A DNA stretch of 64,000 bases, from NCBI GenBank assembly GCA_030278955.1, contig JAOANR010000001.1, forward strand, positions 20,935,468 to 20,999,467, in the 5' to 3' direction. Positions 4,194-60,719 of this stretch are shown piece after piece. Numbering within the stretch: position 1 is the first letter of the stretch; every line of letters begins with the position of its first letter. Made by a program: the position numbers and the translations under genes. This DNA is from Hygrophila difformis (Eukaryota > Streptophyta > Magnoliopsida > Lamiales > Acanthaceae). The notes below the pieces were generated by a model. The model was not told where the DNA came from, made no database searches, and saw only the letters and a program-made list of their open reading frames with translations.

Positions 4194-4561
4194 TGTTGGA
4201 AAAAAGGGGTTTTGAGCTCCTTTTTGCGTAATGACGATATTTAATTTGGATTAATTAAATAGCGTATACGAATTCTACGTTTCGCGTAGATTGTCGTAGT
4301 GCATTTATTTTCTCAAAACCGTTGTCGGGTGAGTGAGAAATAAGTGGTCGAAATGGGTCATTGAATGCGGCTAGTTGAAACGCTTGTATTTAAATGGTTG
4401 TTAAAGGGTAGGTTAAAGTGGCGCGTCCCACATCGCTTAAGCAGTGGGAGTTAAGTTAGTTTATATTGTTCTGCATGTTAGAAACAATTAAACTAATACA
4501 GATTGATCAAGTGTGGGGGAAGCCCACACGCGCGCGCCCGTCCCGTCCCGTCCCGAGCCGA
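4194..4561 (+). repeat. Copia-1 5' LTR, truncated
   Basis: Matches 9496-9863 almost exactly, from TGTTGGAAAAAAGGGG to the GC-rich run CGTCCCGTCCCGTCCCGAGCCG. Similarity then stops inside this low-complexity run and gag sequence follows. A slip or recombination between GC-rich repeats could have caused the deletion. Confidence 0.9.
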
Positions 4562-36435: not shown

Positions 36436-36722
36436 TGATAATGGCCAGAAATGACCATTATTTTCAATCCATTTCCGTGTCTGAAACGGGCATTTGATCG
36501 CATTCCGGTCTTATATTAAATATGAAAGCAGTGGAATTGGACTGATTTATGCATAATTGTAAAAATATTGAGCTGGTATGAGAAATGCATAAATGTGTAA
36601 TTTTATTACACATTTATGTTAGAGAAATCCAAAAACATGAGAAAAAAAAAAGAAAAGAAAAAGGAAACAAAAAGATGGGAAAAGAAATGAAAAACCCACA
36701 AAAAGTTGATTTTTCAGGATAT

Positions 36723-36988
36723 TACGACGCTAAACCCAACTACGGCGCTAAGCATGTATAGCGTCGTAGCTTGGTCTAGTGCCGTAGGAGGAAACCCAAA
36801 CAGCAATCTGAAGAGGAGCGGACGGCGCTAAGCACGGATAGCGCCGTAATCAAGCATAGCGCCGTAGGCAAGGATAGCGCCGTAGGCTGTCCATTCAGAA
36901 GCAAGCGTGTCTTTGGGATGGAAGACTACGACGCTACACCTATAGCGCCGTAGCAAGGATAGCGCCGTAAGCCATCGATAGCGTCGTA
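36723..36988. repeat. Athila-1 LTR motif array 1 (TACGRCGCTA / TAGCGYCGTA), upstream of TATA
   Basis: About ten exact and several one-off copies of the 10-bp motif in both orientations within 266 bp; some are spaced 18 bp apart (36857 and 36875; 36942 and 36960). Each copy contains two CG dinucleotides. The array ends 60 bp before the TATA box at 37048. The 3' LTR has the same array at 56574-56840. Likely protein-binding sites; function inferred. Confidence 0.85.
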
Positions 36989-37047
36989 AGCCTTGCCAGA
37001 ATTCAAATTTCAAGGCCTGGGGGCCCATGGGCCTAGGGTTTCCCACC

Positions 37048-37055
37048 TATAAATA
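37048..37055 (+). promoter_or_regulatory. Athila-1 LTR TATA box
   Basis: TATAAATA in CCCACCTATAAATAGAGG, following GGGCCCATGGGCCTAGGG. It is the best candidate for the LTR core promoter. The 3' LTR copy is at 56899-56906. Confidence 0.75.
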
Positions 37056-37702
37056 GAGGTGTTGACTCCCTGGTCTTGTCACTTCATCACATTCTCAAAC
37101 TTGAAGACAAGAGGCTGTTCTTGAGAGTAGTGTAGGTTAGTTAGATTAGTTAGTTTATTTTCATGTATTATTTAATTTCTGCACATAGATTAGTTTAAAT
37201 AATACTTAGATTAGTGTTATTTTAGGGCTTCCAGTAGGATAGCCACTGTTTTCTTTTGTTTTTCAGTTTTGTTAAACCTTCATTAAGGTTTGAAATACCC
37301 AAATGATGGGTATTATCAAACCATTTTATGAAAATGGGAAGTTAATCTTTGAAAGTGTCCCAAAAACATGAAATGGACATGTGTCCATGGATTTATTGTC
37401 TTGCTTTTGATTTCATGACCATTTGGTCATTTTATCATACTGTTCATGTGGGTTTTCTGTTTTCTTTCCATTTTTTGGGATTTATGCATGAATGTTGGTT
37501 GAAAACCCTCATTTGGGTTTGTGGTTCATGAGTGTGTAGTTTAGTATAGCTTTATTCACTGTTTTGCAATTCTTGCATTTTACTTTCACTATTTTTAGCT
37601 TGTTATTACGTTTTTTCATCCGTTTGTGAACCATGAACTCGAAAATAGGGCTTGCAATCGCAGAGATTGCATTACCCTTACAACAACATGCTTCTGGACT
37701 AG

Positions 37703-38177
37703 CTACGACGCTAACCGCCCTATGGCGCTATCCTAGGATAGCGTCGTAGGTGAGGTATAGCGCCGTAGTTGCCCAGAACTTGAACAAAAATTTGCCCTAC
37801 GGCACTAAACCAACGGCGCTATTCTCAGATAGCGCCGTAATTTTCGTTTAGCGCCGTAGGTCCCCAAAAATTTCTCTCTCTCAGAACCCACCTACGGCAC
37901 TATCCTCACGACGCTATCCTAGGATAGCGCCGTCATTTAACGTTTAGCGCCGTAGTATCCCTTTTTTTTTCCAAAAACTTCTAAATTTCTCAAACCACCT
38001 ACGACGCTACACCTACGACGCTATACTAGTATAGCTAGTATAGCGCCGTAGTAGTGTATAGCGTCGTAATTACCCCTTTAATCCAAAATTTATTCTCCCT
38101 CTTGCACCAACCCATGACGATGCTACCCTCACGACGCTATCCTAGGATAGCGCCGTCACATCTGTCTAGCGTCGTAA
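37703..38177. repeat. Athila-1 LTR motif array 2
   Basis: About twenty copies or near-copies of TACGRCGCTA / TAGCGYCGTA, many as close inverted pairs around TATCCTAGGATA or TATACTAGTATA centres that make long perfect palindromes. It lies about 650 bp downstream of the TATA, so it would be in transcribed LTR. The 3' LTR copy is at 57555-58016 and lacks one TAGTATAGC repeat unit. Confidence 0.85.
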
Positions 38178-40881
38178 TCAGCATCTTCATGCAGATTTTC
38201 CATTCTCCATTTCCATAATTAATTAATTGAACCCTCTAGTCATTAATGATCTATGAGTCTAATTAGGAATAATTAAATCACTAATTGTTGTGATTAGAGG
38301 ACCTTTGTTCAATTGCCATTAAAATAATTTTCTATAAATAAAATCATGATGTCTTAAACAGATAATCCGGACTGTAATTAATTATGGTAGGAGGGATTAT
38401 TTAAGCCATCAATTATGGATTGATTCCATAACCTTGCATGAGAAACCAATGTCTCTCATGCAAGTTGCTCTCTTTATTTCACTTGATTTTGTCTTCTGTG
38501 TATTGTGTGTAACAATTAGTAAAGAATACATCAGACTAATGTTGGCGGGTATTCCCTCACGGATAACTAGCTCGTAGTCTGGGTGTTAGTTACTAAGTGT
38601 TATTTTGCATGATCTGGATGGCTGTCAGTGGAAGCCTTGGCGGTTCGCCCATCCGGGGTTATAATAGCTGCTCAGCTGACTCCTATCCAGATACAGTTTT
38701 ATTTTATTTATCTTAATTTCCAAACCCAAATTCCAATCTGTAATAAAACTCTGCTAATGTCTGTCAACATTAGCGGATAAGTACTGCAGAGAGGAAGCAT
38801 GTAGGTTTTTATCCGAATTCACAGACAGTGGAGGCCCAACTGGCATTGACACTGTCATTACAGGACCTAAGCTGTCTAAATTCGCTCCATCCGAGTAATT
38901 GGGAAATTGGACAGTAGATGTTTACAGTCCACCCGATTATTCTGCCATAACTTTGGTCTCCCGACCACTTTATATCTGTGTTTCACCTTCTGTCTAGACC
39001 CGCATCTATATTTTGGGTCAATTAATTTTACACTTCCATATATCCTTATGCATGATAATTTTATGTACTATTGTGGTCTATAATATTTTGGGATCCTTCC
39101 CTTGGACAATAGAAGCCTAGATCTTAAATAGAGAATGCATATTAAATTTCCGATAAAAACTCCTTTATAAAATCCGGATCTAAGTAAGGGATAAATTCTT
39201 CAGTTATGACTAATTTATATTCTATCAAGGGTTGATTTTGGGAAATTAGAAGCAGAGTCAGCGATTAGGTCTCATCTAGGCTGAAAGAATCTGTGCTTTA
39301 ACTGAGAGTCTAGTACCTGTTTAGGGAATGATTTTCAAATCCATTATTTTCCAAAATTGCTATTTGTTGGGAATCTAAGATCAAATATTACACCGAGATG
39401 GGGTCCACTTGGACTCAAATACAGTGTAGTAAATAATCTTAGAGGAACATCATCCAGGCCTTGGTTATTTTCTAAGATAGGGTTGAGTTTTCTTTTAACT
39501 GCTATCCTCTCTTGCCAAAGCCTACTTTTGAGCCCTGAGTGAGTGCATCCGGAACGAACTAATTAGTTAGTTCGTTTCATTAGTTTGTATCTCATAACCA
39601 TCCGGAAGGAAGTGAACGATCGAGTAGTTCACCAAGAGCCGGGAATTCTTGATCCATACCCCTTCATTCTGATGGGGAGCTGTCTTTTTTACTACCAGGG
39701 TCAAACCTTCAAAACCTCCGAGTGATAGGTTTTAAATGCTTTCTTTACCGCTTTCTATTACCGCTTTCTTTTAAATGCTTTCATTAGAGGTCACTCGGTT
39801 GTATTGAGAGTTGCGTAACTGCTACTAGGATTGATAGTTAAGGGAGAGTTTAGAACTCGATTAGAATCTTTGGGTGTGACATGGGGGAATGATAACAGTA
39901 CTTGGCAATTCAATAAATGATTTGTCAGGTGTTGCTTGTCCACCACAGATGACGTAACATACCCAGGCCAGGACAGTTACAAATCTGTGGTACCTTAGAA
40001 TTTTACGGTCTTAAGAACATGTAAACTCATACTGTAAGTACCTGTCTGTTAAAGGGAAAGCTGTACTGAGAGCATGAGAATTAGCTATCTGACAGGATTA
40101 TCCCAAACAAAGATCTGTGTATAAAAATGGAAGTTTAATACTGCCTTATCTAAATCTTGTCCAATTTTTACTCTTTTCTTCCTGTCCCTTCTATCTACAT
40201 TGTGATTCAGCTTCACGGCTGGCATAATGTAAATTTTCACTGTTTTCATAGATAGTATTTATCGCATTTTTAGAATAACTTTACCCACTTTCTAGAATAG
40301 ACTTATATGCTTTGTAGAATAAATTTAAACGCTTTCATAGTTTAGTTTAAATTCATGTCAGTAGTTGTTAATCACTTTTCAAACCATTGGAGTAATACGA
40401 ATGAAAAATCTAGTAAAACGATGTGGGCCCTGCTTCTATCGCACATCCTCCAGTGAACGATCCGGTCTTACTATAAATTACTGCAATTTTTGACACCGTG
40501 CGCTTTCGGGCCACAGTTTCTTAACACGAGTAATAAAAACGTGACAACTTATAAATATATCCCTAATCCCAATTCCGCCATCATAAATTGGTTTCATTAA
40601 ATAAAATTGAAAACCAGGATTACGATTTTTCAGAAAATACTCATGAAGAGAGAACTTGTCAAAAGTTTCATGGCAAGGATCTTCAAGGCATGAAATTGTC
40701 AGAGATTTCATGCCGGGGAGGTTCGTAATGACACTTGAACTCAAAGATTACTCTCATGAGTAATAAAAAGTGGAATATATCCTTAAACCCCTTTCCCATG
40801 AATCATAACTCTTTTCATTTAATAAATTTAACCTGGGATATTTTAGAAAGTACTCGTGTGATGAAATTGTCAAAAGTTTCA

Positions 40882-40899
40882 TGGCGCCGTTGCCGGGGA
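40882..40899 (+). other. Athila-1 primer binding site (tRNA-Asp type)
   Basis: TGGCGCCGTTGCCGGGGA directly follows the LTR end and is complementary to the 3' end of plant tRNA-Asp, the primer typical of Athila elements. Confidence 0.88.
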
Positions 40900-41039
40900 G
40901 GATGCAGCGCCGTTTTATTAGAGAATTACATTCCTCATTGCTCCTAGTTAGCTTATACATATAAATATAAATATTCACCCCGAAACCGATTCTAACCTGG
41001 GGAATGTGCAGGTACTGTCATAGCTAAGACCTCTGTTCT

Positions 41040-44000
41040 ATGCAAAAGAGAATGGAGACTCCAGCCGAGATCCCGTTCAACACAGAAATCGAGAAAACAG
41101 CTCGTCGTCTGAGGGCGGAAGCTAGACAAAGAAAGGAACGGGAAAGACAAGCTCTACTCTCTCCAAGCACAAGCAGTGACATCTCAGACATGGCAGATAA
41201 CCATGGCAACCCCCCAAACCTCCCACTTAACCCACCACTCCAAAACATCCAAGAGGACCCAGAAGACGTTGACGTTGAGAACTTGGAGGATCTCCCCCCT
41301 CAGGTCATCCAGGGAGGTGAGAATCCCCCAAATCTCGAGCAGCAACCCTTCGAGATGCCTCCACCCAACCCAAACCACCAAAACCCCCAAAACAACCCAC
41401 TTAACCAGAACAATCCTAATAACCAAAATTTTCAGAATCCTCAATTTCCAGACCCCAGTTTAACCAAAACCAGAATCATCCTAACCCTAACGATTTGAAT
41501 GATCCTAGAAATTACTATCCGAATCAGAACTTTTACCCACAACAATACCAAGGAGGGCCAGGGAACAATCAACAGGCAGCCGCAGCTGACTATATGCAGC
41601 CCATTCTAGAACCATATTTGAACATTCCTGGACAAGCTCCATTCTTGGCCAGGAATTTCGAATTGAAGCCGGCTCTCATCAATCTTGTTCAGAGCAACCA
41701 GTTCGCAGGAGCAAATCATGAAGATCCGCATGATCATTTGCAAACATTCTTGGAGCTATGTGACACCATTAAAAACCAGAATGTATCTGCTAACACCATT
41801 CGATTGAGGCTGTTTCCTTTCTCTCTGACTAGCGGGGCGAGAACATGGTACAAATCACTGCCCGTGAATCAGAAGTCTGCATGGGAAGACGTTATCAGAA
41901 ACTTCTTGACAAAGTACTTCCCGGAATCCAAGGTGGATGAATGCCGCTCTAAGATTGCGGAATTCAAGATGAAACCAGACGAGTCCCTGTATGATGCAAA
42001 GGAACGGTTCTTCAACTTGCTTAGGAAATGCCCCCAGCATGGTTTCCATGAGTGGGAGAAATTGAGAAAGTTCTATAGCGGTTTGACCCCAGCATGGAAG
42101 AACATGCTTGATGCTGCCGGTGGTCAACACCTGCTATACATTCCCATGGACCAAGCTTGGGCCAAGATTGAAGCAATGAGTGTAAACAGAACTGTACTTT
42201 CTGATGATGTTAATTCCTCTCCCCCTCGTGGTTTATGTGCTGTAGGTACAGTAGGGAAATCTGAGCTGGACAAACTAAAAGACCAAGTGGCCGTCTTGGC
42301 CTTGAATCAGGAAGCTGGGAGCTCTACACAGGCTCAAAATGCTGAAGCTGTTTGCGGGACTTGCCAAGGCCCGCATCCCACCGAGTCCTGTCAGCAAGTG
42401 GCGAATGAGAGCTGTAACTATGCAGGTGGATTCCAAAACCGGCACCCGAACCTTTCATATTCCAACAACAATGCTTTGAATTCCCACCTGTTGACCCAGC
42501 CTCAACAGTTCAACCAACCAAGGCCCCAGCACTTTAACCCAGGCTTCCAGCCTCAGATTCTAGCTAGGCCACCTCAAAACCAAAATTTCCAAAGCTTTCA
42601 GCAGCCACAGAATCAGTTTGTCCCAAATCAGAATCAGTTTGGTCAAAACCAAGGTCAGAACCAGAATTGGAACCAGAACCAGCAGAAACCCCCTTCCAGA
42701 TTAGAGACCCTCATGACTGACTTCATCACCAGTCAAAAGGAAATCAACACGCAGTTGCAGTCCTCTATCCGGAATGTGGAGACTCAGGTTACACAAATGG
42801 CCAAGGAAATGCAGAAAAGAGACCAAGGAACTCTACCCAGCACTGCTGAGAAAAATCCTCAGTGTAAGGCTATCACACTAAAGTCTGGTAAAGTTCTGGA
42901 AGGACCCAATGGCAAAGAGAAACTGGTACAAGGAAATGAATTGGAAAGTGACATTGAGGAGAATGAAAAGGAAGCTGAAAAAGAGACAGCCAATCTGCAG
43001 ACTGATGCTGCACCTGAAACGGCTGAAACAGAAAAGGGTACAGGTGGAGGTACAACTTCCTTCCCTTTACCACAAAAACAAGTAGATAATAACAAGTACA
43101 TGCCTAGGATTCCCTATCCTGCACGTCTTAAAAATAAGGAACATGATCTTAAATTCAAGAAATTTCTGGAACGATTAAAGTCTGTAGAGATAACCATTCT
43201 TCTCACAGAAATGATTTTCGAAATGCCCATCTATGCTAAGTTCTTGAAAGAATTGATTTCAGGAAAAAGGCAGGTCGAGCAAGAGGAGGTGATTATTCTC
43301 AACAGCACATGCAGTGCCATAGTTCAGAGGAGAATGCCTGAAAAGAAAGAGGACCCCGGATGCTGCACGCTTCCAGTACAATTCGGAAAGGCCAAAGTGA
43401 GTATGGGGCTTTGTGATTTAGGATCGAGCATCAATGTGATGCCACTAGCTATGGCAATCCGCCTTAAGCTTGGAGAGATTCAACCAATCAAGATGAGACT
43501 GCAGCTCGCAGACAGATCGATCACTCAGCCCGTAGGAATCCTCAAGGATGTTGTGGTCAAAACCGGCCAGGTTCTCTTCCCGGTTGACTTCATTATCCTC
43601 GACATTGAAGAAGATTCTGAAATGCCACTTATCCTTGGACGCCCATTCCTGGCCACTGGTGGTGCACTAATTGATGCTAAATCTGGAAAGGTCACATTGA
43701 GGGTCGATGGCGAGGAAATCACCTTTGATATTGAACAGCTGCAAAAGTTTCCGAATGAAGGAGCTTGTTCCATGTTTTCTGTAATAGATAGTGGAGAGGA
43801 AATTGATTGTGAGGAGAGAGAGCTTGACTCTGGACTTGATCATGAAATGATGCTGGATGACTTATCAAAGCAGGTACTGAAGCCTGCTGGCGTGGAGCAC
43901 AAAGGATGCAAAGCCGTCCACTTTGCCGATCCCGAAACAGGGGATTTGGAGGAGTTTGACGGCACAGACTTCCATGACGACGCCGACCAAGAGGAGGCGG

Positions 44001-46993
44001 ATCCTGTACTGATGCAGGGTCCGGAAGGTAAAATTGATCTTCTCCCATCTAATTCTCGCAAATTACTTCCTTCCGTTGAATGCCCACCAGAGCTTGAACT
44101 TAAAACATTACCCGATCATCTCAAGTACGCGTTTCTCGCAGAACATAAAAAATTACCTGTGATTGTTTCGGCTAAGCTCTCCCAAGAGCAAGAAAATGCT
44201 CTGGTGGTCGTTCTTAAAAATTATGTGCGTGCAATCGGTTGGACCATTTCTGATATCAAAGGAATAAGCCCTTCTGTTTGTATGCACAGGATTTTAATGG
44301 AGGAGAATTTCAAGGCCTCTCGCCAGCCCCAACGAAGATTGAACCCACCCATGCAAGAAGTGGTAAGAAAGGAAGTGATCAAGCTGTTAGACGCCGGTAT
44401 TATATACCCGATTTCTGATAGCAAATGGGTCAGTCCTGTGCAGGTTGTTCCGAAGCAGGGTGGGATGTGCATTACGCAGAATGAACAAGGGGAGGAAATT
44501 GCCACGCGTCCAGTCACCGGATGGAGAGTCTGCATAGACTACCGGAAGTTGAACGAGGCAACTCGCAAGGACCATTTCCCTTTACCTTATATCGATCAAA
44601 TGTTGGAACGGTTGGCGGGAAGGGCATTTTATTGTTTTTTAGATGGTTATTCTGGATACAATCAAATAGTGATCGCCAGTGAGGATCACGAAAAAACTAC
44701 TTTTACATGCCCTTATGGCACTTTTGCCTATAGACGCATGCCTTTTGGTCTTTGCAATGCACCTGCTACTTTTCAAAGATGCATGATGTCTATATTCTCT
44801 GAATTTATCGAAAAATGCATTGAGGTCTTCATGGATGACTTCTCTGTATATGGAGATACGTTTGATGAATGTTTGACTAATCTTGCTAAGATTTTAAAGA
44901 GGTGTGAGGACACTAACTTGGTTTTAAATTGGGAAAAGTGCCATTTCATGGTCACTGAGGGCATAGTGTTAGGTCATCGCATTTCTCGTGCAGGCATCGA
45001 AGTTGATCCAGCCAAAGTTTCCGCCATTTCCAATCTCCCTCTCCCCAATTCTATCAAATCAGTTAGGAGCTTCTTAGGGCATGCCGGTTTTTACCGGAGA
45101 TTCATTAAGGATTTCTCTAAAATTGCCAAGCCGCTCACTAATCTGCTTTGTAAAGAAAATCCTTTCTTAATAAATGAAGCGTGTGTCCAAGCCTTTGACA
45201 CGCTCAAGAAGATGTTGGTTTCTGCACCGATAGTGCAACCACCCGATTGGTCAATACCTTTCGAGGTAATGTGCGATGCTAGTGGTCTCGCCGTAGGTTC
45301 AGTACTCGGGCAACATAAGGACGGGAGACATTGCGTGATTCATTACGCAAGTCATGCCCTGAATGAGGCCCAAGTTAATTACACCACAACGGAGAAAGAG
45401 ATGTATGCTGTAGTCTTCGCGTTTGACAAGTTCAGACAGTATCTGATAGGTACGAAGACCATAGTGTACACCGATCATACAGCATTGAGATACTTGTTTA
45501 GCAAACAAGATGCCAAACCTTGATTAATCAGGTGGGTACTTCTGTTGCAAGAATTCGACATCATAATAAGAGATAGGCGAGGTCGAGATAATGATGCTGC
45601 TGACCACTTATCTCGATTAGATAATGATAAAAAGGAAAAAGCCGTCAATGAAGAGTTTCCGGACGAACAGTTGTTCGCATTGCATCTGCATAATCAAGCT
45701 TGTCCATGGTTTTCCGACATCGCTAACTTCTTGGCATGCGGAATAACCCCACAGTTTTTGAACTATCATCAGAAGAATAAGTTCAAACGAGATGTATTAA
45801 GTTACTTCTGGGAAGAACCTTATCTCTTCAAACACTGCGTCGATTCAATAATCAGACGATGTGTGAACGAGCATGAAGCCTATCAAATTGTCAGAAAGTG
45901 CCATGAATCAGAATATGGAGGTCACCATGGTCCCGCTCGAACGGCCCACAAGGTCCTCGAATGTGGATTTTATTGGCCTCACATCTATGAGGATTGCAGG
46001 ACATTTGTGAAAGGTTGCGACAAATGCCAAAGATTAGGAAACCTTTCCAAGAGGGATGAGATGCCTCAAAAGGGAATTCTCACACTTGAGATTTTCGATG
46101 TATGGGGCATTGACTTCATGGGACCGTTTCCATCATCTGGTGGAAACTACTATATCTTGGTAGCTGTCGATTACGTGTCCAAATGGGTCGAGGCTGTCGC
46201 ATTACCGACCAATGATGGTAGCCAAGTCATCAAGTTCCTCAAGAACAACATTTTCAGTCGATTTGGCGTACCTAGGGTGGTGATATCTGATGGAGGAACG
46301 CACTTTATTAATAAAGCTTTTGAAACTTTAATGAATAAAAATGGGATCCTCCATAAGATAGGCACACCTTACCATCCCCAGACTAGTGGTCAAGTCGAAG
46401 TATCCAATCGCGAAATCAAACATATACTCGAAGTCACAGTCGGGATAACCCGTAAGGATTGGGCACGTAAGCTCAATGATGCTCTATGGGCATACCGCAC
46501 AGCGTTTAAGACTCCCATTGGGATGTCTCCTTACAGACTTGTCTTCGGAAAAGCCTGTCATTTGCCCGTAGAGTTAGAGCATAAAGCCTACTGGGCCGTC
46601 AAAACGCTTAACTTCGATCCGAAAGTTGCTCAGAGCAAACGTAAGTTGGACCTCAATGAAATTGAAGAAATACGAGCGCTAGCTTATGAAAGCTCTCGAA
46701 TTTATAAGGAGCGGACCCAGAAGTTGCACGATCGCAGGATTAAGCCTAAGCATTTCTATGTTGGTCAAAATGTATTATTGTTCAATTCTAGGTTGAAGCT
46801 GTTTCCTGGAAAGCTTAAATCCAAATGGGAAGGACCACATGAAGTGCTGGAAGTGTTTCAAAATGGAGCCGTCAGGATCCGAACTGACAAGGGCAACATA
46901 GTGGTGAATGGACATCGATTGAAGGAGTACCTCGGACAGTTCGATCCGGAGAAAGAAAGCCAAACAGTGGCAGACCCGGCTTACATTCAATAA
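41040..46993 (+). pseudogene. Athila-1 gag-pol polyprotein with one frameshift and one nonsense codon
   Basis: 41040-41498 encodes an Arg/Glu-rich then Pro/Asn-rich gag N-terminus. A one-base insertion in the GACCCC run near 41452 moves it to the frame of 41495-45523. That frame has the gag core (DHLQTFLELCDTIKNQNV, RLRLFPFSL), a Cys-His knuckle-like CGTCQGPHPTESC, protease LCDLGSSINVMP, RT (CIDYRKLNEATRKDHFPLP, VFMDDFSVYG) and RNase H (MCDASGLAVGSVLGQ, TEKEMYAV). A TGA at 45521-45523 (where ...DAKP(R)LIRW would be expected, CGA to TGA) splits off integrase 45545-46993 (HHCC zinc finger ending [38 protein letters not shown]). Otherwise fully open. Confidence 0.93.
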
Positions 46994-47486: not shown

Positions 47487-47730
47487 CTACGACGCTATCC
47501 CCAACTACGACGCTATCCTTGGATAGCGCTGTAGCAATAGGATAGCGCCGTAGGGATCTTTCCCATCTTAGTCCATCTACGACGCAGTCCCTTAGAACGA
47601 CGCTATCCTTGGATAGCGCCGTACTAAAGGCATAGCGCCGTAGCACCCCCTCCCCCTCATTTCCACTTACGACGCTGAACAAGGCTACGACGCTAGTATA
47701 GCGCCGTAGGCTAGGTATAGTGTTGTAGAA
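47487..47730. repeat. Athila-1 internal motif array 3, upstream of the F-box gene TATA
   Basis: About twelve copies or near-copies of TACGRCGCTA / TAGCGYCGTA in both orientations, the same motif as in the LTR arrays. It ends about 16 bp before a TATA box at 47746. The flanks are not LTR-like, so this is not simply a displaced LTR. Confidence 0.85.
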
Positions 47731-47745
47731 ACCCTTTTTCTCACC

Positions 47746-47753
47746 TATAAATA
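47746..47753 (+). promoter_or_regulatory. Internal TATA box of the Athila-1 F-box gene
   Basis: CACCTATAAATACCCCCACC, closely resembling the LTR core promoter context (CACCTATAAATAGAGG). It is 136 bp before the exon-1 ATG, with a CTTCTTCTTCATTTCC leader. Confidence 0.65.
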
Positions 47754-47881: not shown

Positions 47882-49729
47882 ATGGACAGATTCCACAGAA
47901 TCCTTCCAAACTTGCGACCGTTGCCCAGACCGAGACCACGGAGGGCAGGGTAAAACCCACATTTTTCCCATCCCTGTTCATGGCCTCCATTTGAACCCTT
48001 GTTTTCTTTTTCGAACTTTTTGGTTAAAAATAACACAATGTGGGGTGTGTTCACTCTTGTTTTTCTGTTTCGGGTACTGTTGCTCTCGGTTTTGAGGAAT
48101 CCATTTGAAACCTTTTTGGAAACCCTTAAAACTTGTTTTCAAACGGTTTTAAAAACTGTTAAAGGTTAGAAATTTTCTAAAAAGTTCAAAACTTGAAGGG
48201 ATGAACTGATGAATGTTAGGGTGTTATTTCAAGCACCACGATATTTTTAGTTTTTCTATCTTTGAGTTCTTGACAAAGAAAAATTGAGTTTTTGGTGTTT
48301 TCATTCAAAACCTTGCTTTTGATCTTATTTTGTATACTTGCAGTGTTGTTTTGAAACATTAAAGGTGGAAGATCCTTTTTGGGATACCTGCCTTTACTGT
48401 CTCAAAATCTTTTGGAATAAGTGTCACCTTATTTTTGGAAACATGATACAAGCACCCAATAGGGACTTGCCACTTTTTCAAAAGAAAGTGACCTTATGAA
48501 AAAGACAAAAAGAGTATTAGATTTAATATTTGACTTATGTTCCCAATGGAACTGCAGTGTGAGTAAATAGCAGTATTTTTGTCACCCAACTGCTATTCTC
48601 TTCAAAAATCCAAAATGGGACCACTCACATCCCACTTTCATTAAATAAAATAAGTCAACCCTTTAAAAATTAAAAAATAGTGTTTGCAAATTTTTGGATG
48701 TTTTAACTGTCCAAGACAGTCCAGGCAGTCCAAAATAGCAGATCCATTTCACCACGCCTCCATTGCACATTCCAAAATTCGAGCTCTCATCTCCATCATT
48801 CCATCTCATCCCATTTTCAACAAGTGTCTCGGACTTGTTTAATAAAATTGAAAATCAATCTTTTGGGCCCAATGGCCCATTAAAAATATATAGGGACCCA
48901 ATGACCCCTATCATTTCTTAAAAATCTATTTTACCCATGCTTTAAATTAAAATTCAAGTTGGAAATTTAATAACTTCACATCTAGAGCAAAGCTCGAGGA
49001 TGTTGGTTTCTGAACTTGAATAATTTCTGAAAAATCATAAAAGTTGGATTCATCACTTCTTATCTTTTCAGGGGCAATCTTCCAAACCCAAACCCAGTGC
49101 CCAGAGGAACCCAGCTGCTGGACCTTCCGTTACAGCTTCTAGGAGAAATTCTCTCCCGAATCGGGGAGGATGAAATGAAAGAAGTGTTCAGAGCTAGGAG
49201 AACTTGCACGAAGCTGAGGGACGCAGGAAACCTCGCCATCGTTTACAGGCGATGCGAGCTGGACGCGGCTAGGGTGAGGCACTGGCAGGAGGAGATACGA
49301 AGGCAGAAAGAAAGATTTCTGCACACATGCACTGAGGCTGGAAACTTCAATCTCCAAATTGTTCTAGCACTCATGGCATTTGTAGAAGGGGACGAAGAGC
49401 AAGCATGCGAGCTGCTACGGCCAGGCATCGAAGACAATCATAAAGCGTCAATCCTCACCCGCGGACTGATGCTCATGAGCAAGATGGATGAAAGCCAGGT
49501 CAATCAGGGGATCGCAATGATCGAGAGGATGGTGACCAACCGAGAGGTTTTCACCTACACATCCACCAACACCCTCGCGTGGATGGCAGACAATCATGCT
49601 CCCTACTTGTTTGCAGGACAACCACCCCGAGTTTTCTGCAGAAGGAGGCATGCACCCCTGAGAAACCGCGACTGGTGCCTGCGTTGTGAGCTGACCAGCT
49701 ATGTCCACTGGCTCCGATACATGTTCTGA
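47882..49729 (+). CDS. F-box protein gene carried by Athila-1 (two exons)
   Basis: Exon 1 (47882-47949) encodes a basic Arg/Pro leader beginning MDRFHRILPN and ends GCAGG|GTAAAA. The intron is 1,122 bp with a strong acceptor TTATCTTTTCAG. Exon 2 (49072-49729) joins in phase to give 241 aa. Residues about 38-78 form an F-box (LLDLPLQLLGEILSRI...FRARRTCTKLRDAGN); the rest resembles plant At1g67623/At2g35280-type F-box proteins, with a Cys/Trp-rich end (RDWCLRCELTSYVHW). F-box proteins bind SKP1 and choose ubiquitination targets. Exon 2 alone has no suitable ATG (its open frame begins at GTG), which supports splicing. It occupies the place where Athila elements often have an env-like frame. Function is inferred. 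Confidence 0.8.
47950..49071 (+). other. Intron of the Athila-1 F-box gene
   Basis: Bounded by GTAAAA and TTTTCAG. T-rich, no open frame of note. Contains TCGAGGATGTTGGT near 48997, a weaker echo of the polypurine-tract-like GAGGATGTTGAT. Confidence 0.65.
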
Positions 49730-50061: not shown

Positions 50062-50401
50062 CCTGCTGATAATGGCCAAAATTGTCCATTATTTCCAATC
50101 CATTTCCGTGTCTGAGACGGACATTTTGATCGTGATTCCATCTTATTTCAATAAGAAAGCAGTTGAATTTGACAGATTAATGCGAGTTTGTAAAAACATC
50201 GAGCCGGTAACAAAAAGACACAAAATATACAATTTTAAATTGTATTTGTGTTAGAAAAATCCAAAAACATGAAAAAAGGAAAAAGAAAAGAAAAAAGGAA
50301 TGAAAAGATGGGCAAAAGAATAAAAGAGCCCACAAAAATCCAAAAAGATGGGAAAAAGATTGAAAATCCCACAACTGAAATTTGGTTAAGAGTTGAAGCA
50401 T

Positions 50402-50800
50402 AATTCGAATTGTGAGCAATTCGAATTAATTCGAATTGCACAACAATTCGAATTGCTAAAGAGAGCAAAGAAATGGTAAGTGTTGGAAGGGATGCAGAAG
50501 GCTAGTTCGAATTATTCAAGTTCGAATTAATTCGAATTAGGGAATGAAGAGAGAAGAAACCCAAAGGCAAGAAGAAGATGCAATTCGAATTGTCCAAGTT
50601 CGAATTAATTCGAATTGGCACCAACAATTCGAATTGCCAACAAAGTGCAAGGAGCCAAGGAGAAACCCTCATCCAATTCGAGAAAAGATCAATTCGAATT
50701 ATTCACAACAATTCGAATTGACTACTGAAGGCTACAATCCCAGCTCAAGGAAGAGATCTCACAATTCGAATTAATTCGAATTGGCTAAGATAATTCGAAC
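50402..50800. repeat. Solo-LTR array 1 of the palindrome AATTCGAATT, upstream of TATA
   Basis: Twelve exact AATTCGAATT palindromes plus GTTCGAATT variants, often as overlapping pairs (AATTCGAATTAATTCGAATT). The position equals array 1 of the Athila-1 LTR, ending about 80 bp before TATAAAA at 50878. Confidence 0.9.
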
Positions 50801-50877
50801 TTCACTTAACAATTCATTCAAATGAAGCTGTGGAGCATGGACACAACATTGGTGGGCCTAGGGTTTTGAAGATTGTC

Positions 50878-50884
50878 TATAAAA
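50878..50884 (+). promoter_or_regulatory. Solo-LTR TATA box
   Basis: TATAAAA after GGGCCTAGGGTTTTGAAGAT, equivalent in position to the Athila-1 LTR TATA (which follows GGGCCTAGGGTTT). Confidence 0.65.
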
Positions 50885-51751
50885 GCAAACCTTCCACAAC
50901 AGAATCAAGAGATCAAGAATTTTAACCAAAAGGCAGCTTGGGACAAAAAGAACAGCAGGAGGTTCCACACCCCTTAAGGGTTAGGTAGGTAGTTTAGATT
51001 AGTTTAGTTTATTTTTCTTACAAGTTTTATAATCTTTACATGCTTTAATCTTAGTTTAGTGTAGAAGCAGTTTGTGTAACCCTTAGAGTAGCCATTTTCC
51101 ATATGTCTACATGCTTTCTAGTTAGAATAAACCCTACCTTCAAGCTAATGATGGTTTTGGGTTCTTATTTTGCTTTCAAGTGTCAATACAAGGAAAATTT
51201 CCAGAAATGGTTTTATCCATTTGTTTTGGCACTCTTTAATGCTTTCCCTAGAAATAAATGCTTAGTGTGTTTGTTTGTTTCAACTAGGTTACATTTATTA
51301 TGTCCTAGTTGACATTCAAACTTAATAAATGCATGTTTGTTGGGTTTTTGGCTTGATTTAGTACCTTAGAGCTTCAAATAAGTGTTCTTAGGTTTTAGAT
51401 GTTTTTAATGTCTGTGTTAAGTTGTATTTTAATTTTATTCTTCCTGCCTTAATCTTATTTCGTGCTTCCTTAGATAACTTGTGTGTTCTTAGTTTACTCA
51501 TGTAGTTCTTAGATAACTAGATGTTTTAGGCTCTTTGATCTCTGATTTCTTGTTTGTAGAAATAGGGTTTGAATCTGGCCAATACCCACTAGACATGTAT
51601 TTGTTTATTTCTTGAAAATCTCACTAGGGTGGCTGTGAAATGACACTGATGTGAGATGAGGGATTTAGTAAATCTAAACCCATCATTACAGTACAGTGTT
51701 CACCTAACCCATACTTGTGAGAACAAAAATTGTTGTTGTCTGAAAATATGT

Positions 51752-52211
51752 GATTCGAATTGAGGCAATTCGAATTAATTCGAATTGCTAAGAGAAATTC
51801 GAATTGCATAGCCAACTATTCTCTTCATGTGGTTTCCAACCAATTCGAATTATCCAATTCGAATTAATTCGAATTGCCCAACAATTCAAATTGGCTTGAA
51901 AACCACATTGTATCCATTGCCATTCATTCATGCCTTAGTTTATTTTCCATCCTTTACCAATTCGAATTGTTGCAATTCGAATTAATTCGAATTGCTGTAC
52001 AATTCGAACTCACCCTCCCTTTGAGGTAAATGCCTTAGTCAATTTGAGCAAGAAAGTGACTTCGCCAATTCGAATTGTCCAATTCGAATTAATTCGAATT
52101 GGCCAATAATTCGAATTGGATGATGCTCCAATTTCTAGCAATGATCAATTGAGTAAGTAATACTTCATCCTTCATGCATTCTCAATTCGAATTACCCCAA
52201 TAATTCGAATT
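51752..52211. repeat. Solo-LTR array 2 of AATTCGAATT
   Basis: Fifteen exact AATTCGAATT copies arranged in four or five similar blocks (single site, overlapping double site, single site). The position equals array 2 of the Athila-1 LTR. Confidence 0.9.
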
Positions 52212-54960
52212 GCACTATCCCTTCTATTTTGGAAACTCCAAAAATATTTTCTTTCATGATTTGTGTAAGTTGCATGGGTGTATTGGGCCTAGGCCCAATT
52301 CAGCTGATTTCTATCCATTACACATCTCAACCCATTAGTGTCCATTTATTGTGTGCTTAACACCCACACAATACCAAAAATATTTTCTTACTTTTATATT
52401 TTTTCTCTTTCATTGTGTGTATGAACGGATAATGAGAAACGCACAGATTAATGTTGGTGAAAGGTCCCTTCACAGGGATATCGACTAACCCGTCTTCTTT
52501 GTGTCAATCATTATCTGTTATTTTGCATGATCTGATTAGTGGTTGGTGGAAGCTTCGGCGAGCGTTCTCTTCACTAAGAGTTTCGATTAGTCACTCAGCC
52601 AACTCCTAATCAGATACAGTTTTAATTTTCCTTATCTTAATTTCTCAACCTGAATTCAAGTTGCAATAGTATCAACTGATGTCGACCAACATCAGTTGAG
52701 AAATATTACAGCGAGAAATATGTGGGTCTTTCTTCCACTCACAGACAAAAGAAAACTAAATGACGGCGGTCACCGTTGTTTGGAATTCTTTCTGTCTAAA
52801 ATCTGTCATCTGGGAAAATTGGGAACCAGACAGCAGATGTTTGCAGTCCGGAAAATCTCAACTATCTCTGGCACTCTTTTTAGCCGATTTCTTCTCATCT
52901 CAGGCTAATCCACCTTTGTGTATCGCATTCTGTCTAACCCCACCATATATTTTGGGGTATTTTATTTTCCTTTTCATATACTTGTATGCATGATACTATT
53001 ATGTAGATGTTCCGGTCTTATTGCTATTTTGGGGATCCTTCCCCTTGGACACAGAAGTCTTGCTCTAAATCAGATGTTGCATAATAAATTTCCAACAAAA
53101 AAATTCCTTTATAAAATCCGGATCTGAGTAAGGGATAGATTCGACAGTTATGACTAATTCATATTCCACTAGGGATTGATTTCGAGAGCTTAGAAACAGA
53201 GTCAGCGATTAGGTCTCATCTAGACTGAAAGGATCTGTGTTTTAATTGAGAGTTTAGTACCTGTTTAGGGAATGATTTTCAAATATTCATTTGCTTCTCA
53301 AAATTGCTGTGTGTTGGAAATCTGATATTAGATATCACATTAAGTCAATATCCACTTGGGTGTAGATGAGATGTGATAAATAATATTAGAGGAACAACAT
53401 ATAGGCCTTGGTGAATTTATAAGGTAAGGTCGAGTATTCCTTCGACTACTATCTTCTTCTGCCAAAGTCTAGAATTGAGTCTTGAGTGAGTGCATCCGGA
53501 ATAGGTTCATTTATGGATCTGTTTCATTCAGTTTGTATCTCATAACTACCCAGATGTTGTAAGCCCTGTGGCTTATTGATATCTCGGGGGTTCTTGATCT
53601 GCATCTGGTCACCAAGACCAGGGGCTCTTTTATACTAACGGAAAGAGACGTTTTTAACGATTCCGAGTGATAGATTTAAATGCTTTCTTTACAGCTTTCT
53701 TTACTGCTTTCCTTTAAAATGCTTTCATAGAGGTCACTCGGAAGAATTAGGGGCTGTCCATCTGTTAAAAGGTTTGAGAGTTATGGAATGGTTTGAGGCT
53801 TGATTTGAAACTTTGGGTGTGACATGGGGGATTGATAGCAGTACTTGGCATGTCAACTAATGATTTGACAGGTGTTGCTCGTCCACCGTAAACGATTAAC
53901 ATACTTTTGCAAGGCATTGCAAGGGGAATTAGGAGTTTATGGTATCTTAGGAATTGCTGTCTTAAGAGCATGTAAACTCTTACTGTAAGTACCTGTCTGT
54001 TAAAGGGAACATGGTATAGAGAGCATGAGAGTTAGCTAACTGGAGGATTATCCCAAACTAAGATCTGTGTATAAAAATGGAAGTTTAATTGTGTTTCATC
54101 TGAACCTTGTCCAATCTTTATTATTTCCTCCCTGTCCCTTCTGTCATATTTAAATCTGCTTTTTAGATAGTGTAGCATAATTTTATATTGCTTTCGTAGT
54201 ATAGATTTAATTGCTTTCTTCGATCTAGTTTATCATGCTTTGTAGAATAATTTTTACTGCTTTCATGATCTGGTTTAAATTATGTCGAGTAGTTGATAGA
54301 AACCCTTGCAAAACTTGAAACGAGTAACCGAGTGGAAAATCTTAGTAAACGACGTGGGCCCTGCTTCCATCGCACATCCTCCAGTGAACGATCCGGTACT
54401 TACTATAAATTACTGCAATTTTTGACCCGTGCGCTTTCGGGAGCACAGTTTCGTGACACGAGTAAATAAAAACAACATTTTGGGCAAATACTCTTACAGT
54501 GGGAAGATGTTCAAGAATTTCATGGCAGGTATCTCTTTGACATGAAATTTAGAGAAGCATCATGGTGCAGATATCAGGGACTTTCAGGGTGACAGACTGA
54601 AGGTCCATTCCTGTTGCACTGTGATATTTGTCAAAAGTTTCATGGCTGAGAGGACCACAGCGCCGTTTGAACCCCACAGGAGTAATAAAAAGGGAAATCT
54701 TAATATATTCTTAAACCCCTTCCCCCAATCATAACTCTTTTCATTTTAATAAATCCGAATTTGGAAATTGTATTTAGACGGTTCTTCAACCCCCCAGCAG
54801 CAAAATGAAACTTGGCTTGGGTGCAAAAGTTTCATGGCCGTCACCGGGGACTCTTGAGGCACCATTTGAAATCACAGTTTCCTCCTTAAGCAATAAACCA
54901 GTAAAAGGAATTTTCAGAAAATTACTCGTGTTGGCGAAGCTCGTCAAAAGTTTCACCTGC

Positions 54961-56286: not shown

Positions 56287-59200
56287 TGATAATGGCCAGA
56301 AATGACCATTATTTTCAATCCATTTCCGTGTCTGAAACGGGCATTTGATCGCATTCCGGTCTTATATTAAATAAGAAAGCAGTGGAATTGGACTGATTTA
56401 TGCATAATTGTAAACATATTGAGCTGGTATGAGAAATGCATAAATGTGTAATTTTATTACGCATTTATGTTAGAGAAATCCAAAAACATGAGAAAAAGAA
56501 AAGAAAAGAAAAAGGAAACAAAAAGATGGGAAAAGAAATGAAAAACCCACAAAAAGTTGATTTTTCAGGATATTACGACGCTAAACCCAACTACGGCGCT
56601 AAGCATGTATAGCGTCGTAGCTTGGTCTAGCGCCGTAGGAGGAAACCCAAACAGCAATCTGAAGAGGAGCGGACGGCGCTAAGCACGGATAGCGCCGTAA
56701 TCAAGCATAGCGCCGTAGGCAAGGATAGCGCCGTAGGCTGTCCATTCAGAAGCAAGCGTGTCTTTGGGATGGAAGACTACGATGCTACACCTATAGCGCC
56801 GTAGCAAGGATAACGCCGTAAGCCATCGATAGCGTCGTAAGCCTTGCCAGAATTCAAATTTCAAGGCCTGGGGGCCCATGGGCCTAGGGTTTCCCACCTA
56901 TAAATAGAGGTGTTGACTCCCTGGTCTTGTCACTTCATCACATTCTCAAACTTGAAGACAAGAGGCTGTTCTTGAGAGTAGTGTAGGTTAGTTAGATTAG
57001 TTAGTTTATTTTCATGTATTATTTAATTTCTTCACATAGATTAGTTTAAATAATACTTAGATTAGTGTTATTTTAGGGCTTCCAGTAGGATAGCCACTGT
57101 TTTCTTTTGTTTTTCAGTTTTGTTAAACCTTCATTAAGGTTTGAAATACCCAAATGATGGGTATTATCAAACCATTTTATGAAAATGGGAAGTTAATCTT
57201 TGAAAGTGTCCCAAAAACATGAAATGGACATGTGTCCATGGATTTATTGTCTTGCTTTTGATTTCATGACCATTTGGTCATTTTATCTTACTGTTCATGT
57301 GGGTTTTCTGTTTTCTTTCCATTTTTTGGGATTTATGCATGAATGTTGGTTGAAAACCCTCATTTGGGTTTGTGGTTCATGAGTGTGTAGTTTAGTATAG
57401 CTTTATTCACTGTTTTGCAATTCTTGCATTTTACTTTCACTGTTTTTAGCTTGTTATTACGTTTTTCATCCGTTTGTGAACCATGAACTCGAAAATAGGG
57501 CTTACAATCGCAGAGATTGCATTACCCGAACAACAACATGCTTCTGGGCTAGCTACGACGCTAACCGCCCTACGGCGCTATCCTAGGATAGCGTCGTAGG
57601 TGAGGTATAGCGCCGTAGTTGCCCAGAACTTGAACAAAAATTTGCCCTACGGCACTAAACCAACGGCGCTATTCTCAGATAGCGCCGTAATTTTCGTTTA
57701 GCGCCGTAGGTCCCCAAAAATTTCTCTCTCTCGGAACCCACCTACGGCACTATCCTCACGACGCTATCCTAGGATAGCGCCGTCATTTAACGTTTAGCGC
57801 CGTAGTATCCCTTTTTTTTCCAAAAACTTCTAAATTTCTCAAACCACCTACGATGCTACACCTACGACGCTATACTAGTATAGCGCCGTAGTAGTGTATA
57901 GCGTCGTAATTACCCCTTTAATCCAAAATTTATTCTCCTTCTTGCACCAACCCATGACGACGCTACCCTCACGACGCTATCCTAGGATAGCGCCGTCACA
58001 TCTGTCTAGCGTCGTAATCAGCATCTTCATGCAGATTTTCCATTCTCCATTTCCATCATTAATTAATTGAACCCTCTAGTCATTAATGATCTATGAGTCT
58101 AATTAGCAATAATTAAATCACTAATTGTTGTGATTAGAGGACCTTTGTTCAATTGCCATTAAAATAATTTTCTATAAATAAAATCATGATGTCTTAAACA
58201 GATAATCCGGACTGTAATTAATTATGGTAGGAGAGATTATTTAAGCCATCAATTATGGATTGATTCCATAACCTTGCATGAGAAACCAATGTCTCTCATG
58301 CAAGTTGCTCTCTTTATTTCACTTGATTTTGTCTTCTGTGTATTGTGTGTAACAATTAGTAAAGAATACATCAGACTAATGTTGGCGGGTATTCCCTCAC
58401 GGATAACTAGCTCGTAGTCTGGGTGTTAGCTACTAAGTGTTATTTTGCATGATCTGGATGGCTGTCAGTGGAAGCCTTGGCGGTTCGCCCATCCGGGGTT
58501 ATAATAGCTGCTCAGCTGACTCCTATCCAGATACAGTTTTATTTTATTTATCTTAATTTCCAAACTCAAATTCCAATCTGTAATAAAACTCTGCTAATGT
58601 CTTTCAATATTAGCGGATAAGTACTGCAGAGAGGAAGCATGTAGGTTTTTATCCGAATTCACAGACAGTGGAGGCCCAACTGGCATTGACACTGTCATTA
58701 CAGGACCTAAGCTGTCTAAATTCGCTCCATCCGAGTAATTGGGAAATTGGACAGTAGATGTTTACAGTCCACCCGATTATTCTGCCATAACTTTGGTCTC
58801 CCGACCACTTTATATCTGTGTTTCACCTTCTGTCTAGACCCGCATCTATATTTTGGGTCAATTAATTTTACACTTCCATATATCCTTATGCATGATAATA
58901 TTATGTACTATTGTGGTCTATAATATTTTGGGATCCTTCCCTTGGACAATAGAAGCCTAGATCTTAAATAGAGAATGCATATTAAATTTCCGATAAAAAC
59001 TCCTTTATAAAATCCGGATCTAAGTAAGGGATAAATTCTTCAGTTATGACTAATTTATATTCTATCAAGGGTTGATTTTGGGAAATTAGAAGCAGAGTCA
59101 GCGATTAGGTCTCATCTAGGCTGAAAGGATCTGTGCTTTAACTGAGAGTCTAGTACCTGTTTAGGAAATGATTTTCAAATCCATTATTTTCCAAAATTGC

Positions 59201-60719
59201 TGTTTGTTGGGAATCTAAGATCAAATATTACACCGAGATGGGGTCCACTTGGACTCAAATACAGTGTAGTAAATAATCTTAGAGGAACATCATCCAGGCC
59301 TTGGTTATTTTCTAAGATAGGGTTGAGTTTTCTTTTAACTGATATCCTCTCTTGCCAAAGCCTACTTTTGAGCCCTGAGTGAGTGCATCCGGAACGAACT
59401 AACTAGTTAGTTCATTTCATTAGTTTGTATCTCATAACCACCCGGAAGGAAGTGAATGCGCGAGTAGTTCACCAAGAGCCGGGAATTCTTGATCCATACC
59501 CCTTCATTCTGATGGGGAGCTGTCTTTTACTACCAGGGTCAGACCTTCAAAACCTCCGAGTGATAGGTTTTAAATGCTTGCTTTACCGCTTTCTATTACC
59601 GCTTTCTTTTAAATGCTTTCATTAGAGGTCACTCGGTTGTATTGAGAGTTGCGTAACTGCTACTAGGATTGATAGTTAAGGGAGAGTTTAGAACTCGATT
59701 AGAATCTTTGGGTGTGACATGGGGGAATGATAGCAGTACTTGGCAATTCAATAAATGATTTGTCAGGTGTTGCTTGTCCACCACAGATGAAGTAACATAC
59801 CCAGGCCAGGACAGTTACAAATCTGTGGTACCTTAGAATTTTACGGTCTTAAGAACATGTAAACTCATACTGTAAGTACCTGTCTGTTAAAGAGAAAGCT
59901 GTACTGAGAGCATGAGAATTAGCTATCTGACAGGATTATCCCAAACAAAGATCTGTGTATAAAAATGGAAGTTTAATACTGCCTTATCTAAATCTTGTCC
60001 AATTTTTACTCTTTTCTTCCTGTCCCTTCTATCTACATTGTGATTCAGCTTCACGGCTGGCATAATGTAAATTTTCACTGTTTTCATAGATAGTATTTAT
60101 CGCATTTTTAGAATAACTTTACCCACTTTCTAGAATAGACTTATATGCTTTGTAGAATAAATTTAAACGCTTTCATAGTTTAGTTTAAATTCATGTCAGT
60201 AGTTGTTAATCACTTTTCAAACCATTGGAGTAATACGAATGAAAAATCTAGTAAAACGATGTGGGCCCTGCTTCTATCGCACATCCTCCAGTGAACGATC
60301 CGGTCTTACTATAAATTACTGCAATTTTTGACACCGTGCGCTTTCGGGCCACAGTTTCTTAACACGAGTAATAAAAACGTGACAACTTATAAATATATCC
60401 CTAATCCCAATTCCGCCATCATAAATTGGTTTCATTAAATAAAATTGAAAACCAGGATTACGATTTTTCAGAAAATACTCATGAAGAGAGAACTTGTCAA
60501 AAGTTTCATGGCAAGGATCTTCAAGGCATGAAATTGTCAGAGATTTCATGCCGGGGAGGTTCGTAATGACACTTGAACTCAAAGATTACTCTCATGAGTA
60601 ATAAAAAGTGGAATATATCCTTAAACCCCTTTCCCATGAATCATAACTCTTTTCATTTAATAAATTTAACCTGGGATATTTTAGAAAGTACTCGTGTGAC
60701 GAAATTGTCAAAAGTTTCA
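56287..60719 (+). repeat. Athila-1 3' LTR (4,433 bp)
   Basis: Near-identical to 36436-40881, including both motif arrays (56574-56840, 57555-58016) and TATA (56899-56906). It is followed by TSD CTTAC. Confidence 0.93.

Follow-up and report, generated by a model that had tools for sequence, protein, structure and literature searches.

Motif-class turnover at homologous array positions in Athila-like long terminal repeats of Hygrophila difformis

Motif arrays in a solo LTR and its host element

The stretch of DNA analysed here (the window) comprises 64,000 nucleotides of the Hygrophila difformis genome (assembly GCA_030278955.1, contig JAOANR010000001.1, positions 20,935,468-20,999,467, forward strand) and contains an Athila-like Ty3/gypsy retrotransposon into which a related solo long terminal repeat (LTR) is nested, between an accessory open reading frame (ORF) and the 3' LTR (Table 1). 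Arrays of short motifs occupy the same two places in both kinds of LTR, with AATTCGAATT in the solo LTR and CTACGRCGCTA in the LTR of the Athila-like element. Comparison with copies elsewhere in the 915 Mb genome that was searched indicates that these are two of at least five motif classes, and AATTCGAATT seems to represent a step within a series of in-place letter changes at homologous sites. The arrays are putative binding sites for a sequence-specific DNA reader at the promoters of these elements.

The window contains 27 exact copies of AATTCGAATT, all within positions 50402-52211, 12 in one cluster (50402-50782) and 15 in the other (51767-52211), compared to a mean of 0.24 and a maximum of 2 in 100 dinucleotide shuffles of the window; the count and the clustering given in a preliminary description of this DNA are thus borne out. 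With near-copies included, the solo LTR carries 34 sites. It starts with TGATAAT and ends with AGTTTCA, is flanked on both sides by the direct repeat CCTGC (50062-50066 and 54956-54960) and has no internal region, that is, it combines the TG...CA ends and the 5-bp target-site duplication of an LTR with the lack of a body. The previously noted common backbone with the Athila-like LTR at 36436-40881 is also found, in the first 270 bp (80% identity) and in the 3' half (73%). The second array begins 655 bp after the TATA box in the 5' LTR and 874 bp after it in the solo LTR. In the solo LTR, a unit often has two abutting sites in the middle, with a further site on either side across a short gap. 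Selection of AATTCGAATT as a motif for its palindromy was considered and rejected: the motif is better described as the 12-mer CAATTCGAATTA, which is related to CAATTCGGTYTA and owes its palindromy to the letter changes.

The two LTRs of the Athila-like element are 98.7% identical. Array 2 of the 3' LTR is composed of five units, each with two forward sites followed by two reverse sites, and array 3, located after pol, has three such units; the unit order is less regular in array 2 of the 5' LTR and in both copies of array 1. The spacers differ between units, so the arrays are not tandem repeats. The order of the encoded domains, namely, gag, protease, reverse transcriptase (RT), RNase H and integrase, is of the Ty3/gypsy type. 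Athila traits are present as well: a gypsy-type gag-pol, a primer site at 40882, directly after the 5' LTR, that we take to be tRNA-Asp-like, and an extra ORF after pol, which is a Transposase_32 ORF in AATTCGAATT elements and an F-box ORF in the window element. The primer binding site, TGGCGCCGTTG (40882-40910), resembles the array motif of the element itself, TAGCGCCGTAG, with two mismatches, and a further AGCGC lies downstream; this resemblance may be due to chance.

Table 1. Features of the Athila-like element and of the solo LTR nested in it (window coordinates)
Feature	Position	Strand	Remark
5' LTR, CTACGRCGCTA class	36436-40881	+	target-site duplication CTTAC
5' LTR array 1 (U3, unique 3' region)	36722-36989	+	CTACGRCGCTA, 12 sites
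5' LTR TATA-box match TATAAATA	37048	+	consensus match by eye
5' LTR array 2	37703-38177	+	19 sites
gag-pol frames (gag, protease, RT, RNase H, integrase)	41423-46993	+	in-frame stop 45521-45523
Array 3, after pol	47487-47728	+	CTACGRCGCTA, 12 sites as three units of four
TATAAATA, presumed accessory-gene promoter	47746-47753	+	17 bp past array 3
Predicted two-exon accessory gene	47882-49726	+	splicing inferred from sequence
Solo LTR, AATTCGAATT class, nested in the Athila-like element	50067-54955	+	4889 bp
Solo LTR array 1 (U3)	50402-50801	+	16 sites (C)AATTCGAATT(A); stops 76 bp before TATA box
Solo LTR TATAAAAG, presumed core promoter	50878-50885	+	consensus match only
Solo LTR array 2, presumed transcribed leader	51752-52211	+	18 sites
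3' LTR	56287-60719	+	12 sites in array 1, 20 in array 2

Motif classes and in-place change of sites

A 20-base word from the LTR start has 2079 + 2045 exact matches in the genome, with none for the reversed control. From these, 20 LTR 5' pieces of 2.29 kb each (L031-L050) were sampled, namely, the first contig 1 places listed, one per cluster, with one already-sampled place omitted. The CTACGRCGCTA class accounts for 9 of the 20 (L032, L033, L038, L039, L042, L043, L044, L046 and L049), and one more, L041, has merely 4 copies of this motif. Three LTRs (L034, L035 and L037) belong to the GTCGCGGAM class, itself consisting of several variants; two (L036 and L047) to the AATTCGGTYT class; and three to the RATGCGGTTT class (L040 as well as L045 and L050, which are mixed with AATTCGGTTT). 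The remaining two, L031 and L048, have no usable array; a remnant in L048 resembles the GTCGCGGAM class, and foreign-looking sequence, possibly another insertion, breaks its array 1 near the start. Together with AATTCGAATT, at least five classes thus occur at the LTR array positions, or six if GATGCGG (L040) is separated from AATGCGG (L045 and L050), and most of the sampled LTRs are dominated by a single class or by two neighbouring ones.

We counted one diagnostic word per class across the genome, where a word match by itself is not proof of an LTR: AATTCGAATTAATTCGAATT has 11,431 exact occurrences, CAATTCGGTCTAAACCGAATTG 1522 + 1478, GATGCGGTTTATACCGCATC 348 + 383, ACGCTATCCTAGGATAGCG 1519 + 1547 (many counted on both strands), and paired GTTCCGCGACA 20-50 bases apart 880 + 775 (some in other elements), with zero for the reversed control in each case. 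An element has some 30 motif sites, each 10-14 bp long, in an LTR and 12-22 more after pol. The restriction of the arrays to two positions, as originally described, had to be abandoned: a third array follows pol in most of the full elements seen, among them the window element, L051 and three of the four full-length AATTCGAATT elements (L017, L021 and L024). One of the places sampled as an array-3 region, L052 (contig 3, 15970200-15973560), turned out to join an LTR U3 and promoter to the 3' part of a Transposase_32 ORF, a fusion that apparently arose by deletion.

The motif class largely follows the LTR backbone, judging from a midpoint-rooted FastTree phylogeny of the 640 bp after the TATA box (the leader), from which L031, L039, L041, L043, L048 and L049 were left out (no TATA box in range or a broken array). 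Four of the five classes form clades in this tree, with support of 0.92 for CTACGRCGCTA, 1.0 for GTCGCGGAM, 0.89 for AATTCGGTYT and 0.94 for AATTCGAATT. The AATTCGGTYT and AATTCGAATT clades are sisters (support 1.0), and the AATTCGAATT clade is recovered with support of 1.0 in a tree of the first 265 bp as well. In the latter tree, L035 groups among the CTACGRCGCTA LTRs. This LTR is mosaic, with a 5' end that matches a CTACGRCGCTA LTR at 97.4%, arrays of the GTCGCGGAM class and a leader nearest to those of other GTCGCGGAM LTRs (66-68% vs at most 54% for other classes).

For the site-by-site comparison, a joint alignment of nine LTRs was used. Of the 33 sites of L036, 27 align without gaps to the solo LTR. 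Among these, motif positions 2-7 and 11 are identical in 93-100% and positions 8 and 9 in just 15% and 11%, against a background identity of 64% in the spacers and 73% in the leader. Of the 22 aligned sites that have GTYT in L036, 21 have AAT in the solo LTR, and the core letters 4-7 are unchanged at 21; for L047, the respective numbers are 20 of 20 and 18 of 20, and in six further comparisons the switch is seen at 16-20 of 17-23 sites and the core is kept at 15-22 of 17-23. Between L040 and L050, position 2 is the main difference (13% identical), and between L050 and L036, positions 5 and 10 are; array 2 of L045 has one called site only. Array 3 of L051, of the AATTCGGTCT class, aligns with those of L017, L021 and L024, of the AATTCGAATT class, and many sites differ in the same letters (by eye). 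L036 and L047 each hold 4 copies of AATTCGAATT, and intermediates therefore exist.

An aligner could pull similar motifs together; as a guard, the called motif letters were masked and the pairs realigned, with sites counted as coincident when within 2 columns. Under this control, 24 of 33 sites coincide between L036 and the solo LTR, compared to 17% of random points; the other counts are 24 of 33 for L036/L028a, 19 of 31 for L047/L016a, 22 of 35 for L050/L036, 19 of 35 for L050/L028a and 16 of 34 for L040/L050 (random points, 15-18%). The alignment and the masked control together reject wholesale replacement of arrays. Thus, of the earlier statement that the arrays had been replaced, the presence of another motif at the same two places stands, and the sites appear to have changed in place rather than to have been swapped; across the sampled LTR classes, motif identity changed while position, unit layout and copy number stayed, as had been proposed. 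RATGCGGTTT, AATTCGGTYT and AATTCGAATT look like a series, whose order is inferred by midpoint rooting of the tree; from one class to the next, the same small set of letters differs at almost every homologous site, and the core and the site positions stay.

The two LTRs of single elements were compared in four pairs, of which two are truncated where the sampled stretches end; motif letters differ at 11 of 1382 positions and the rest at 117 of 14363, an equal overall rate; at CpG positions, the counts are 9 of 317 and 20 of 403. The equal overall rates suggest that copies decay after insertion, so that the conservation between lineages would reflect selection in active lineages.

One motif class is shared with an unrelated element. 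Among 100 listed places with paired GTTCCGCGACA, the class of L034, L035 and L037, most lie on contig 1 at 35.65-35.99 Mb. One of these, L054 (contig 1, 35712500-35714700), has at least 10 exact copies, mostly in direct order, upstream of the TATA-like TATATATA, and at E 0.001 it resembles L016-L053 and the window only in 28 bp shared with L034. Its primer-site-like words, TGGTATCAGAGC, presumably indicate another type of retrotransposon. A trans-acting reader that acts on several families, perhaps a host factor, would explain the shared class; array capture by recombination, or convergence, is a possible alternative.

Promoter matches and accessory genes after pol

A TATA-box match follows closely after both array 1 and array 3. 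Past array 3, TATAAATA is found at a distance of 18 bp in a second CTACGRCGCTA element, L053, close to that in the window; the AATTCGAATT elements have the TATA-like stretches TATATAT and TTTTTATACCC, and L051 only TATTTAT. The predicted accessory gene of the window begins with an ATG in exon 1 (47882-47949), followed by a GT donor at 47950, an intron-like stretch of 1.1 kb with an AG acceptor ending at 49071, and exon 2, which extends to 49726, with the frame kept into the downstream ORF. A similar exon/intron layout, with about 1.4 kb, was seen by eye in L024 and L051. Exon 2 of the window gene encodes F-box-like and TPR_27 domains (Pfam).

Two alternative cassettes are found behind array 3. 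The F-box/TPR_27 ORF is carried by the window element and L021 (Pfam matches) and by L051 and L053 (similarity). The other cassette is a Transposase_32 ORF of roughly 1,400 residues, interrupted in the copies seen, which is present in L017/L018 and L024, with its C-terminal part in L030 and a fragment in L052 (by DNA similarity). Among the four full-length AATTCGAATT elements, three have the large ORF or its end and one has the F-box ORF, and no ORF strictly covaries with the motif.

The F-box proteins of the window and L051, or of the window and L021, are 51-52% identical, those of L021 and L051 63%, and those of the window and L053, which belong to the same class, 75.5%, with 52-55% between L053 and the others. 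The nonsynonymous distance (dN) of this ORF is 0.26-0.42 and the synonymous distance (dS) is 1.4-1.6 in two pairs, with the third saturated. For most pol pieces (RT and integrase), dN between the window and the AATTCGAATT elements is 0.04-0.15; pieces with the N-terminal part of gag are faster (0.24-0.27). By these estimates, the F-box cassette is constrained yet fast-evolving, and it tracks the motif class no better than the backbone does. The F-box/TPR_27 gene was perhaps captured from the host.

A putative DNA reader, its alternatives and related systems

The reading that we favour, with moderate confidence, is that the arrays are binding sites for a sequence-specific DNA reader at promoters. 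A putative protein that binds double-stranded DNA would act on two promoters, that of the LTR and that of the accessory gene behind pol, and would most likely switch transcription on or protect it from silencing. A single trans-acting reader, or a swap between related readers, would set the accepted word, such that the sites change in concert. In foamy viruses, one activator, Tas, acts on the LTR and on an internal accessory-gene promoter; the likeness is in the layout only. We lean slightly towards a host-encoded reader, exploited by several element families, over an element-encoded one, and the F-box product is possibly an effector rather than the DNA reader. A bolder version, which we put forward only tentatively, is that one Ty3/gypsy lineage harbours at least five orthogonal motif-reader systems with cognate readers, element-encoded or hijacked, as a retrotransposon counterpart of VANC, in which the word drifts stepwise, a few letters each time, over some 30 sites in an LTR and about 12-24 more behind pol, via mixed intermediates, and unrelated elements parasitise classes by acquiring arrays. 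The earlier suggestion of two orthogonal systems understates the diversity of classes and overstates the evidence for readers.

Several observations weigh against a reader at promoters. The TATA boxes and splice sites were assigned by eye from matches to consensus sequences, and no TATA box was seen directly after array 2. In the leader tree, the RATGCGGTTT LTRs do not form a clade but lie outside AATTCGGTYT and AATTCGAATT, with L045 branching first, and the tree of the first 265 bp puts L036 and L047 apart. The masked control is weaker in more distant pairs (14 of 34 for L040/L028a, with random points at 17%). The third array was not seen in the AATTCGAATT element L028-L030, which also lacks most of pol. 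Between paired LTRs, non-CpG differences are fewer in the motif (2 of 1065) than in the rest (97 of 13960); the numbers are small, and such a low count is not predicted by simple neutral decay. No reader was found either: homologue searches with both accessory ORFs gave no matches in a protein collection that is perhaps poor in plants, a PDB sequence search with the F-box alignment gave none, the same search with the large ORF gave a single chance-level match (E 0.62), and structure models of the accessory proteins were too poor to use (mean predicted local distance difference test scores, pLDDT, of 35.2 and 36.5).

The strongest rival, possible but rather doubtful in our judgement, is an element-encoded reader similar to VANC that would bind the motif class of its own element, remove silencing and coevolve with the motif; this is a special case of the promoter-reader explanation, and the two probabilities overlap. 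An accessory gene does lie behind array 3, its F-box version is constrained with a higher dN than most RT and integrase pieces, and the F-box ORF tracks the motif class, but this tracking is confounded with that of the backbone, and a different ORF takes its place in three of the four AATTCGAATT elements. To our knowledge, neither F-box nor TPR is a DNA-binding domain; the F-box ORF was rejected as the DNA reader, given that its Pfam matches include no DNA-binding domain and that it is missing from some AATTCGAATT elements. The VANC domains DUF1985 and DUF287 are absent from the Pfam matches of the seven ORF stretches scanned. Two likenesses to VANDAL elements, taken from the available part of PMC5735166, favour this rival: several classes coexist and turn over by lineage, and a motif shared by an unrelated transposable element is also known for VANC6.

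Function of the arrays as hairpins in RNA or single-stranded DNA, in packaging, dimerisation or as a source of small interfering RNAs (siRNAs), with the sequence identity as a by-product, appears improbable. In its favour, the units have inverted-repeat form, arrays 2 and 3 are in presumably transcribed parts, and Sirevirus LTR palindromes are reportedly linked to siRNAs. The arms of the inner palindrome agree in uniform LTRs (10 of 10 in L040; 9 of 10 listed in L036 and L047), although this is expected from uniform classes anyway. In mixed LTRs, arm pairing is not strictly kept: position 5 differs between the arms in 4 of the 8 L050 units and in 2 of the 5 units listed for L045, and because of this disagreement we disfavour selection for hairpins, with the proviso that the informative units are few and the pattern used is permissive. 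Furthermore, array 1 sits upstream of the TATA box, and pairing needs no single word at some 30 sites in separate arrays.

Slightly less probable still is neutral concerted evolution, in which slippage, conversion and LTR recombination would have homogenised the sites with no reader involved. LTR mosaicism does exist (L035), as do mixed LTRs (L045 and L050, as well as L036 and L047 with their AATTCGAATT copies), but the changes are limited to about 3 letters within 12-bp sites, the spacers differ yet stay alignable, and the array after pol, kilobases away from those of the LTRs, differs alike. Microsatellite-like expansion or chance, named at the outset as what would undo the original proposal and favoured by nothing beyond copy number, can be dismissed almost entirely for the LTR arrays given the shuffles, the zero reversed controls, the non-tandem spacing, the recurring unit order, and spacers that differ but align between classes with homologous sites even under masking.

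The closest known parallels to these putative reader arrays come from three sources, which are compared here as far as their available parts go. Sireviruses (Ty1/copia) contain palindromes, specific to each family and present in many copies, that start 200-400 bp into the LTR, in U3 and ahead of the TATA box, and that recur in the linker preceding the env-position gene (Bousios et al. 2010, PMC2829016). Their core is CGG-CCG, as in Osr10 (CGGTCTGACCG) and Inga (AGCGGTASTACCGCT), and Tnd-1 (ACAATCGATTGT) is an outlier that has no such core (PMC2829016). The H. difformis arrays are similarly placed, save for the L028-L030 linker; CGGTCTAAACCG and CGGTTTATACCG have the CGG-CCG core, which is present at the centre of the AATTCGGTYT and RATGCGGTTT units, and AATTCGAATT, like the Tnd-1 motif, lacks it. 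Unlike in Sireviruses, the carrier is Ty3/gypsy and Athila-like (the comparison in PMC2829016 covered Ty1/copia elements), an extra array follows the TATA box, the units run forward-forward-reverse-reverse, and several classes occur in one genome with stepwise in-place differences at homologous sites. The VANC targets are short non-coding repeats, with motifs of related families at least 2 letters apart and protein-motif coevolution proposed (PMC5735166, PMC10398659). The likeness to VANDAL/VANC noted in the preliminary description holds for motif arrays in non-coding regions that diverge between related families, with one motif shared by an unrelated transposable element, and fails for the protein, no VANC domain being found in the scanned ORFs. 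VANDALs, furthermore, are DNA transposons with tandem motifs and a known reader that binds in vitro, whereas here LTR retrotransposons have non-tandem sites changed in place, and the reader is putative.

Other Ty3/gypsy elements share parts of the layout. Athila 14 of sunflower has a 3' additional ORF after pol with partial similarity to Transposase_32 (PF20167; PMC11728184), as do three of the four AATTCGAATT elements and, by DNA similarity, L052; unlike in Athila 14, an F-box/TPR_27 gene can substitute here, and motif arrays were not encountered in the available part of its description. In the region from pol to the 3' LTR, Retand elements have tandem repeats specific to each family, together with antisense TRP28 ORFs for which DNA binding is proposed, and a regulatory role is suggested (PMC11963269); repeats and an accessory ORF are similarly located here, but the sites are dispersed and the ORFs are in sense orientation. 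Sunflower Athila clades show clade-specific drops of methylation in LTR regions (PMC12844716), a pattern that a class-specific reader could cause; the available part of that description does not mention motif arrays.

What sets the H. difformis elements apart is that arrays resembling those of Sireviruses occur in a Ty3/gypsy lineage, together with a spread of specificities reminiscent of VANC and a series of in-place substitutions that can be seen. A literature search that covered few subscription journals found no motif-class turnover in Athila LTRs in titles or abstract openings. A second superfamily is thereby tied to the Sirevirus motifs, described in 2010 for Ty1/copia: the arrays sit in equivalent places and two of the classes have an identical CGG-CCG core, likenesses that point to readers of a common kind. 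It is an unsolved problem of regulatory evolution how a word repeated at many sites can change and yet never pass through a dead stage; this genome, in which mixed arrays exist alongside uniform ones and each has dozens of sites that can be aligned, offers a natural series. If readers are found, they would make up a panel of DNA-recognition specificities and could reveal possible ways in which retrotransposons retain access to transcription and at the same time restrict cross-activation.

Elsewhere in the window, a Ty1/copia-like element at 4194-9874 has 379-bp direct repeats that are 99.2% identical and two long ORFs in the same frame, split by a stop codon. A run of N (masked sequence or a gap) at roughly 22540-23040 inflates the list of ORFs in that region.

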